Shown: piece by piece, positions 31,045 through 33,343 of the stretch
Layout: every line of letters starts with the position of its first letter
Position numbering within the stretch: the first letter of the stretch is position 1
Origin: Gemmatimonadaceae bacterium
Lineage (GTDB): Bacteria; Gemmatimonadota; Gemmatimonadetes; Gemmatimonadales; Gemmatimonadaceae
Direction: 5' to 3'
DNA length: 64,000 bases
Assembly (NCBI GenBank): GCA_022843265.1
Contig: JALHNZ010000009.1
Coordinates: forward strand, 1 to 64,000
Notes under the pieces: generated by a model
Told to the model about the DNA's origin: nothing
The model's input: the letters and a program-made list of their open reading frames with translations, nothing else
The model's database searches: none
Program-made: the position numbers and the translations under genes

Positions 31045-31697
31045 CTACCGACTCGCCCGCAGCGAACGCGGCCTCATCTTCATCTCCGGTCGACGCACAA
31101 TGCGCACCGCGACGTTGGTCTCAGCCGCGCTCGATTGTTCCGGCATGCGCACCATCACGGTCGCCGCACGTTCCACCACGCAATGCATGGTGAGCTCCGG
31201 CGAGCGATACAACGCGCAGTTGGCGCCGTCGGCGGCGAGTATCGGTGGTGTATTCCAGGCGTCGCGCGCAGACGTGAGCGTGATCTGAAATCGTCCCGCC
31301 GGCAGCGGCCAGGTTCGATACTCACCGCGCGCGAGCGCGACGGTGTCGTTGGCCACAAGTTCAATCACCGTCGCACTTACAATCTCTGTGAGACCGCCAA
31401 AATCCACCTCGATCCACGTTTGACCGAAGGCCTGCGGATAGATCCATTCGCGTCACCGGCGGTCCGGCACCTCGCGGCGCCGTTTGCGACCATCACAGCG
31501 GAGTCAGACGATACCACGATCTGCATGGTGGAACGCTCGATCGTCCGTCCCTCGCGCTGCTGCACCGCAACAGGCAGCGCAATCGGTGCGGGACCGTTGA
31601 TGAGGAGCGTGTCCAGTCCAACCACGAGTCGGCTGGGGGTCGCGTCGCGGCAAGCGAGGCCGGTGGACAGCAGAAGCACCAGCAGAAAAGATCGCAT
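31045..31697 (-). pseudogene. Exported protein gene interrupted by a frameshift
   Basis: Two minus-strand ORFs read as one protein. The first (from ATG 31697) begins with MRSFLLVLLLSTGLAC, a lipoprotein-like signal, and runs to about VANGAARCRTAGDAN. The second, in the neighbouring frame, continues sensibly with WIYPQAFGQTWIEVDFGGL and on to the stop at 31045. The shift lies within roughly 31430-31460 and is explained by one missing base. It could be a real mutation, a sequencing error or, less likely, programmed frameshifting. No family is recognised. Confidence 0.6.
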
Positions 31698-31976
31698 CGC
31701 GCTAGAGTAACTCCACGGACGAATTGCTGCTCCGCTTCGCAAGCGCTCAGGCTCGGAACGATGGTGGAAGACGCCAACGGCAATCAGGCCGCGTGAGACC
31801 CCTTGACCTGCGCTCTCAAATCGGCCAGCTTTCGGTGTTGGTGGTAGTACGACAACTCGGCAAGCAGGGCAGCTCAGCGGCCGCCCTCACCCTTTGGCCA
31901 CGATCTCGCGCTGCGAGTCGACGCGCTGATGGAGTTCTCAATGCGCACACGGCGCGCCTCTGTAATCAGGGGCGAA

Positions 31977-31998
31977 CCGTGCTTGTTACGCAACGCGG
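31977..31998 (+). promoter_or_regulatory. Candidate antiterminator hairpin of the infC leader
   Basis: CCGTG-C-TTG pairs with CAACGCGG around a TTACG loop (8 bp with one G-U pair and one bulged C). Its 3' arm (ACGCGG) is also the 5' arm of the terminator, so the two structures exclude each other. Confidence 0.55.
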
Positions 31999-32031
31999 AC
32001 TCCGGACATGGGGCCCGCGTTTTTTGTTTTT
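31993..32031 (+). terminator. Intrinsic terminator (attenuator) just upstream of infC
   Basis: ACGCGGACTCC pairs with GGGGCCCGCGT across a GGACAT loop (10 pairs including one G-U, plus one A-C mismatch). It is followed by TTTTTTGTTTTT. The next gene upstream is on the opposite strand, so the only transcript this can end is the infC leader itself. The infC Shine-Dalgarno begins 6 nt after the T tract. Confidence 0.75.
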
Positions 32032-32036
32032 CTCTC

Positions 32037-32043
32037 AAAGGAG
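32037..32043 (+). promoter_or_regulatory. Shine-Dalgarno of infC supporting an ATC start
   Basis: AAAGGAG lies 8 nt before the in-frame ATC at 32052. No ATG, GTG or TTG stands at a usable distance from it. Confidence 0.7.
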
Positions 32044-32051
32044 CTCGGCGT

Positions 32052-32570
32052 ATCCAGGATTCAACGAAGCGTCCGCCACGGGTGAACCGGCAGATCCGGA
32101 TCAGTCCCGTTCGCGTGATTGGTGCAGACGGCAGTCAGTTGGGCATCATGGAAGTCGATGCCGCGCTGGCCAGTGCGGTCGAGTTGGGCCTCGACCTGGT
32201 CGAAGTCGCTGCGACCGCGCGTCCGCCCGTGGTTCGGATCATGGATTACGGCAAGTTCAAGTTCGAAACAGCCAAGCAGGCCCGGCTGGCCAAAAAGAAG
32301 CAACACGTCATTCATCTCAAGGAAGTGAAGTATCGCCCTGGGATCGACGAGCATGATTTTCTGACCAAGACGCGCAACGCCAAGCGCTTCATTGAAGAAG
32401 GCAACAAAGTCAAAGTCACCCTGATGTTTCGTGGGCGACAGATTACCCACCCCGAGCTTGGACGGGCGGTGGTGGACCGGGTGGCTCAGGAACTGGCCGA
32501 AGTGGCCAAGGTCGAGAGCTCGCCGTTGTTCGAAGGTCGTTCCCTGACGATGATTCTCGCGCCCAAATAA
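32052..32570 (+). CDS. infC: Translation initiation factor IF-3
   Basis: IF-3 prevents 30S-50S association and proofreads start codons. RVNRQIRISPVRVIGADGSQLG (N-domain), ARPPVVRIMDYGKFKFETAKQ and the C-domain KVTLMFRGRQITHPELG are unmistakable. From the ATC at 32052 the protein has 172 aa, the usual length. The track start (ATG 31929) would add 41 residues encoded by the attenuator. A rare start is expected: infC uses ATT in many bacteria, letting IF-3 repress its own translation. It heads the infC-rpmI-rplT operon. Confidence 0.93.
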   Translation: MQDSTKRPPRVNRQIRISPVRVIGADGSQLGIMEVDAALASAVELGLDLVEVAATARPPVVRIMDYGKFKFETAKQARLAKKKQHVIHLKEVKYRPGIDEHDFLTKTRNAKRFIEEGNKVKVTLMFRGRQITHPELGRAVVDRVAQELAEVAKVESSPLFEGRSLTMILAPK

Positions 32571-32639: not shown

Positions 32640-32837
32640 ATGCCGAAAATGAAAACCCATAGCGGCGCCAAGAAGCGCTTCTCCGTGACTGGCACGGGAA
32701 AGGTGCGGCGTCTGAAGGCCTACAAGAGCCACATCCTCACCAAGAAGAGCTCCAAGCGGAAGCGCAATCTCCGTCGTCCTGCAATCATGACGACCAACGG
32801 AGAAGTCAAGCGTATCAAGCGACTCATTCAGGCCTGA
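32640..32837 (+). CDS. rpmI: 50S ribosomal protein bL35
   Basis: 65 aa, very basic large-subunit protein. [24 protein letters not shown] and the tail [25 protein letters not shown] are standard for the family. It sits between infC and rplT in the conserved operon, so it should share control by the leader attenuator. Confidence 0.96.
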
Positions 32838-32849
32838 GGACACCACACT

Positions 32850-33218
32850 ATGCCACGCGTTAAATCCAACGTTGTTCGCTTAAAGCGTAAGAAGCAGATC
32901 ATGAAGGCGGCTCGCGGCGCCTTCGGCGGCCGCAGCAAGCTCTGGAAGGCCGCCAAGGAAACCGTCGAGCGCGGCTGGCGCTATGCGTATCGCGATCGTA
33001 AGAATCGCAAGCGCGAGTTCCGTCGCCTGTGGATCGTGCGTATCAACGCGGCGGCCCACTTGAACGGCATGAACTACAGCAACTTCATGAACGGTTTGCA
33101 GTCTGCCGGCATCGAAGTGGATCGCAAGATCCTCGCCGATATCGCCGTGCGTGATCCGCAGGCGTTTACGGCGCTCGCTGAGCAGGCCCGCGCGGCGCTG
33201 CAGAAGCAGGCCGCCTGA
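32850..33218 (+). CDS. rplT: 50S ribosomal protein bL20
   Basis: 122 aa 23S rRNA-binding assembly protein. [37 protein letters not shown] forms the long basic N-terminal helix; the globular C-domain has [26 protein letters not shown]. In Escherichia coli and Bacillus subtilis, L20 represses its own infC-rpmI-rplT operon, in Bacillus by leader attenuation, which makes it the prime candidate ligand for the leader hairpins found upstream. GAGGA precedes the ATG. Confidence 0.97.
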
Positions 33219-33233
33219 GTTCTTTGCACGATG

Positions 33234-33272
33234 AACGGGCGGCCCGCGCGACCTTCGCGTAGGCCGCCCGTT
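33234..33272 (+). terminator. Operon terminator after rplT
   Basis: Perfect 11 bp stem AACGGGCGGCC/GGCCGCCCGTT (33234-33244, 33262-33272), with an inner CGCG/CGCG stem in the loop, followed by TGCGTTTC. Confidence 0.75.
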
Positions 33273-33343
33273 TGCGTTTCATCAAGCGCCTGCACGCGCT
33301 TCGCTCGCCATTCGCTCCCTCTCCACTTCCTCCCGGATCCCAC

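Follow-up and report, generated by a model that had tools for sequence, protein, structure and literature searches.

The window (the whole 64,000-nucleotide stretch of Gemmatimonadaceae DNA that was analyzed) carries infC, rpmI and rplT, which encode IF3, L35 and L20 and are followed by pheS (Pfam). Ahead of infC lies a predicted RNA leader, whose features are listed below together with the genes, all on the forward strand. The first-pass annotation, with coordinates that start 3′ of the sensor domain, saw only the 3′ part of this leader.

31803–31831: predicted sigma-70-type promoter, TTGACC (31803–31808), a 17-nt gap and CAGCTT (31826–31831)
Near 31838: transcription start expected from the predicted promoter
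31854–31938: sensor (aptamer) domain, presumed to bind L20; match to covariance model R1
31862–31865: AAGC, an AA dimer adjoining a G-C-rich helix, the arrangement of known L20 sites; AAG columns invariant
31866–31887: hairpin H1 (31866–31873 with 31880–31887), with one A-C mismatch in the window; covariation
31889–31935: helix H2, ACCC (31889–31892) with GG(A)GT (31931–31935) and TGGC (31895–31898) with GCTG (31925–31928); 91–94% of cells paired, mostly invariant
About 31902–31919: inner hairpin of H2
31931–31937: GGAGTTC, predicted antiterminator 5′ strand, overlapping the H2 3′ strand
31948–31981: variable hairpin P3 (31948–31952 with 31977–31981, and 31955–31962 with 31967–31974), from folding
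31977–31998: alternative stem of the first-pass annotation, CCGTGCTTG/CAACGCGG, present, unconserved and outside the proposed mechanism
31993–32031: intrinsic terminator, ACGCGGACTCC (31993–32003) with GGGGCCCGCGT (32010–32020), one A-C mismatch; read from the sequence
31997–32003: GGACTCC arm, at once terminator 5′ strand and predicted antiterminator 3′ strand
32020–32031: terminator T-tract T6GT5, TTTTTTGTTTTT; read from the sequence
32040–32043: Shine-Dalgarno GGAG of infC; read from the sequence
32052–32570: infC (IF3), predicted ATC start; Pfam IF3_N and IF3_C
32640–32837: rpmI (bL35); Pfam
32850–33218: rplT (bL20), the presumed autoregulator; Pfam

On the 5′ side of the leader, a minus-strand gene (31045–31742) consists of two overlapping frames with a lipoprotein-like start; the downstream piece of this split gene gave no Pfam match, and a frameshift or assembly error is possible. 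At the other end of the operon, a hairpin between rplT and pheS (33228–33277, −38 kcal/mol) with a T-rich tail is a possible operon-end terminator.

Leaders of infC were taken from 129 loci of relatives and have a common layout. This layout starts about 130 nt 5′ of the terminator with a promoter-like TTGAC, which is followed by the consensus AAGYRG-hairpin-CACCCU-CUGGC..GYGUGCUGCAGGAGUCC, a variable hairpin and GCGGACUCC..GGGGUCCGC-T-tract. Of 118 relatives, 81 have TTGAC at most 80 nt to the 5′ side of the AAG, and none has it in a control window further upstream; the spacing to the AAG is mostly 43–49 nt, and 59 nt in the window. By this comparison, the promoter predicted near 31803–31831 is conserved. 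A start past 32000, or a lack of covariation, had been named beforehand as grounds for abandoning the attenuator; the promoter lies well upstream, and both H1 and the terminator covary.

Alignments of 34 and 96 sequences define the sensor domain. AAG columns are invariant, and H1 shows changes on both sides in all eight of its pairs while 91.5–93.5% of cells remain paired. For the structure as a whole, 87.7% of cells are paired, compared to 39–45% when partners are slid (34 aligned sequences), and the 96-sequence alignment holds 347 double-change cells in the structure against 132 in shuffles. H2 (ACCC/GG(A)GU and UGGC/GCUG) hardly varies across the aligned relatives, so that its pairing is supported by conservation more than by covariation, as expected of a protein site. 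Covariance model R1, built from 34 sequences including that of the window, matches the window only at 31854–31938 (59.7 bits, E 3e-16) and finds the domain in 95 of 95 infC loci searched directly, most of which had no part in building it. Under strict filters and at E<=1e-3, model R2, rebuilt from 96 sequences, matches 170 of 298 genomes, almost all of them with a single match, and the sensor-domain matches sit at infC in every case inspected.

Within the window's family, almost all assembled infC loci have the leader, and most of the other families examined have it too. Among own-family genomes lacking an R2 match, four (G081, G123, G245 and G252) have no rplT match and one (G055) has no infC on the contig; a sixth, G156 (the source of L097), gave a weak match by direct search. 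A second strong R1 match in G191 belongs to a second infC copy in a probably mixed assembly. In one other class (f11), leaders show a terminator and no recognizable sensor domain, and regulation may there be lost or use another site; five of them (L262, L263, L265, L266 and L267) carry a short terminator-like hairpin, GUCCGC-T-tract. A record titled Candidatus Kuenenia (L148, CALQGY020000103.1) holds a Gemmatimonadota-like rplT locus with 78% identity and is probably a mislabelled bin.

Rfam searches, run both at gathering cut-offs and at permissive ones, identified no recognized leader in the window, nor across 16 loci. The Bacillus-type L20_leader model (RF00558, gathering cut-off 58.7 bits) scores 13.6 bits on the window, mostly over the terminator, and reaches the cut-off in none of 200 genomes of the phylum. 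The leader has diverged too far to be recognized by current RNA databases. The first-pass annotation held that the structure resembles neither known L20 leader and may form a new class, and here the comparison leads elsewhere. The RF00558 consensus reads AAGa-AG[H1]CU-C-gCC-Uua-gac..guu-CA-GGc and the Gemmatimonadota domain AAGY-RG[H1]CY-C-ACCC-UC-UGGC..GCUG-CA-GG-AGU. Compared by eye, both contain AAGN, H1, CYC and an H2 closed beside H1 by CC/GG with CA opposite, and both precede infC-rpmI-rplT with an intrinsic terminator downstream. Where the two models match one leader (G024), their AAG registers agree. The differences, apart from the much lower score, are an H1 free to vary in sequence, CACCC in place of CgCC, an additional hairpin, the variable P3, and a predicted antiterminator that forms from the H2 3′ strand GGAGUCC and the terminator arm.

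The best RF00558 match in the 200 genomes, at 33 bits, is itself an infC leader (G097, family f8, L246/L261), AAGCAGAAGCCCACGGCUUCUCGCCUGACGAAC..GUUCGCAGG, and sub-threshold matches fall on six infC leaders (G097, G174, G061, G024, G029 and G016). G178, of the same family as G097, has CGGAC/GUCCG in place of CGAAC/GUUCG, and the G293 leader reads AAGUAGAAGC..GCUUCUCGCC. The 5′ domain of the infC leaders in f8 and f10 comes close to the Bacillus-type consensus, AAGCAGAAGC..GCUUCUCGCCU..CAGG. By sequence, Bacillus-like and divergent leaders hold the same position within one phylum. Individual Bacillus-like 5′ domains were noted in L246/L261, L260 and L264 (f8, f10); in L246, the terminator arm GGGCGGG could, by eye, pair with CCCGCCC 3′ of the sensor, which would make the antiterminator strand a different one. 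Matches to RF00558 in L249 and L250 were set aside as not at infC, and one in the window's own genome (G000:C55, L131) was rejected as a chance terminator with no adjoining infC, rpmI or rplT.

A divergent L20 leader is more likely than an unrelated class, because the layout is common with the Bacillus type and near-consensus Bacillus-type forms occur at the same locus. Judged on the Rfam consensus for the Firmicutes side, the Gemmatimonadota leader is probably related to the Bacillus leader. Alternatively, the leader may be an independent, convergent L20 leader class that mimics the same 23S site without descent from the Bacillus type, with wiring of its own: the helix that binds L20 would contribute its 3′ strand as the antiterminator strand. 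This would fit the failure of all 200 genomes to reach the RF00558 cut-off and the several different scaffolds already known for L20 leaders (PMC7247131); the identical helix order and the f8 and f10 leaders argue against it, and convergence appears unlikely.

An AA dimer together with two G-C pairs in a row is common to published L20 leaders (PMC7247131). In the Gemmatimonadota domain the AAG and CC/GG columns are invariant or nearly so. In relatives' 23S rRNA, used because the window's own genome assembly has none, AAG opens helix 40 on its 3′ strand, UUAAGCAGCC; there too an AA dimer precedes a G-C-rich helix. L20 bound where H1 meets H2 stabilizes the terminator in B. subtilis (PMC6097659). 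Because of these marks, the Bacillus layout and the B. subtilis precedent (PMC7247131, PMC6097659), L20 is the presumed ligand and repression the presumed direction, and by analogy the leader would work like that of Bacillus. The deltaproteobacterial L20 leader candidate of Eckert and Weinberg (2020, PMC7247131) also carries the AA dimer and the pair of neighboring G-C pairs, but belongs to a different lineage and differs in scaffold and gene assignment; neither Gemmatimonadota nor infC is mentioned in the main text of that paper. The L10(L12)4 leader of B. subtilis rplJL (PMC4538822) is likewise a ribosomal-protein leader acting by transcription attenuation, but with another protein and another RNA, so that only the type of mechanism is common to both.

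In E. coli, L20 acts on translation within the operon. Control of rpmI-rplT there resembles the present case in the same genes, the presumed autoregulator and rRNA mimicry, whereas the Gemmatimonadota terminator stands ahead of infC.

The same RNA switch might be operated by IF3, L35 or another factor at the sensor domain, given that the operon encodes IF3 and L35 and that L20 binding is argued from analogy. Against this, the published marks of the L20 site (PMC7247131) are conserved and the layout matches that of the Bacillus L20 leader, which leaves another ligand improbable. For IF3, the infC start codon bears on the question as well. The gene has no ATG; its most likely start is ATC at 32052, in frame, and ATT, ATC or ATA stands at the start position in 86 of 94 family members (relatives L001–L097). 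E. coli infC starts with AUU. As in E. coli, such non-standard codons suggest a second, translational self-control by IF3, which would already give this factor a separate route.

The terminator that the first-pass annotation placed before infC is borne out by direct reading at 31993–32020 plus T6GT5, and ends about 8 nt 5′ of the infC GGAG. The minimum free energy (MFE) fold contains the terminator hairpin, and the 161-nt region 31900–32060 folds into a more stable structure than its dinucleotide shuffles do (z −2.5); a simple consensus terminator scanner did not list the terminator of the window. A hairpin with a T tract is present in the leaders of 117 of 120 relatives, and, by comparison of 116 species, the terminator strands covary (within-species pairing z −20).

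The H2 3′ strand, which reads GGAGUCC in the consensus and GGAGUUC in the window, has its complement in the terminator 5′ arm GGACUCC. Pairing was assessed by comparing duplex energies of each species' own strands with those of mixed-species pairs over 5000 permutations. Own GGAGUCC/GGACUCC duplexes average −13.4 kcal/mol against −12.1 for mixed ones (z −6.8, p <= 0.0002, 116 species); this comparison keeps relatedness in, and equally related control windows give no signal. When a 15-nt window was slid along the leader against the terminator arm, the signal was strongest on the 3′ strand of H2 (z −6.4) and fell to −2.6 in the overlapping window, as a shoulder; all other leader windows gave no pairing signal (z −1.4 to +1.7). 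Position x6-y2 changes from C-G to U-A in four species, and in some relatives the partners are shifted or bulged yet matching, such as GGGUCCGC with GCGGACCC in L008. For a transcript to 32008, the unconstrained MFE fold is the antiterminator (−69.8 kcal/mol, versus −63.4 with H1 and H2 forced); once the terminator 3′ arm is included, the MFE fold holds the terminator. The P3 interval in relatives is more stable than shuffles (mean z −2.25). The long-range GGAGTTC/GGACTCC helix is the predicted antiterminator, exclusive with the terminator, and both are conserved. The attenuator with mutually exclusive helices that had been proposed for the infC leader is thus upheld in kind, being conserved with compensatory changes in much of the phylum.

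The competing helix itself is a different one from that first proposed. The stem CCGTG-C-TTG/CAACGCGG exists, with eight pairs and −8.6 kcal/mol, and overlaps the terminator arm, but it is not conserved. A local attenuator, in which P3 3′ strand CCGTGCTTG pairs with CAACGCGG as antiterminator and no upstream sensor domain takes part, would rest on this overlap. Among 116 relatives the pairing gives z +1.1 (p 0.87), with no within-species preference, and forcing it costs about 4 kcal/mol (−65.5, versus −69.8 with the long-range antiterminator). It would also leave the conserved domain at 31854–31938 and the conserved GGAGTCC unexplained, and is very improbable. An ordinary terminator or untranslated stretch with chance folding and no regulation is scarcely credible: terminators do occur in many intergenic regions, but this one follows a conserved promoter and is directed toward infC, 117 of 120 relatives have it, its partners match on both sides, and covariation contradicts chance.

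The reading very probably correct is that of an L20-type attenuator, in which surplus L20 binding to the sensor domain would free the terminator and repress its own operon. Comparison among relatives establishes the predicted domain, its covariation, the exclusive antiterminator/terminator pairing and the conserved promoter. Without free L20, nascent GGAGTTC (31931–31937) would pair with GGACTCC (31997–32003) around P3, which would bring the antiterminator strands together; the antiterminator would hold the terminator 5′ arm, and polymerase would read into infC. Surplus L20 would bind the AAG/H1/H2 region and stabilize H2, whose 3′ strand overlaps the antiterminator 5′ strand. GGACTCC would thereby be freed, the terminator would form and transcription would end near 32026.

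Transcription attenuation by L20 has been reported as narrowly distributed to Firmicutes (PMC6097659), and no earlier description in Gemmatimonadota was found in the open-access literature. With L20 as the presumed ligand, the present leader would extend this form of control to Gemmatimonadota, with a checkable wiring in which one strand is common to the protein site and the antiterminator. If the class proved to be convergent, one ribosomal protein would have gained yet another independent way of regulating itself. Many diverse natural sequences, and forms bridging to the Bacillus type, are now at hand, so that an ancient, transferred or convergent origin of L20 leaders becomes testable.
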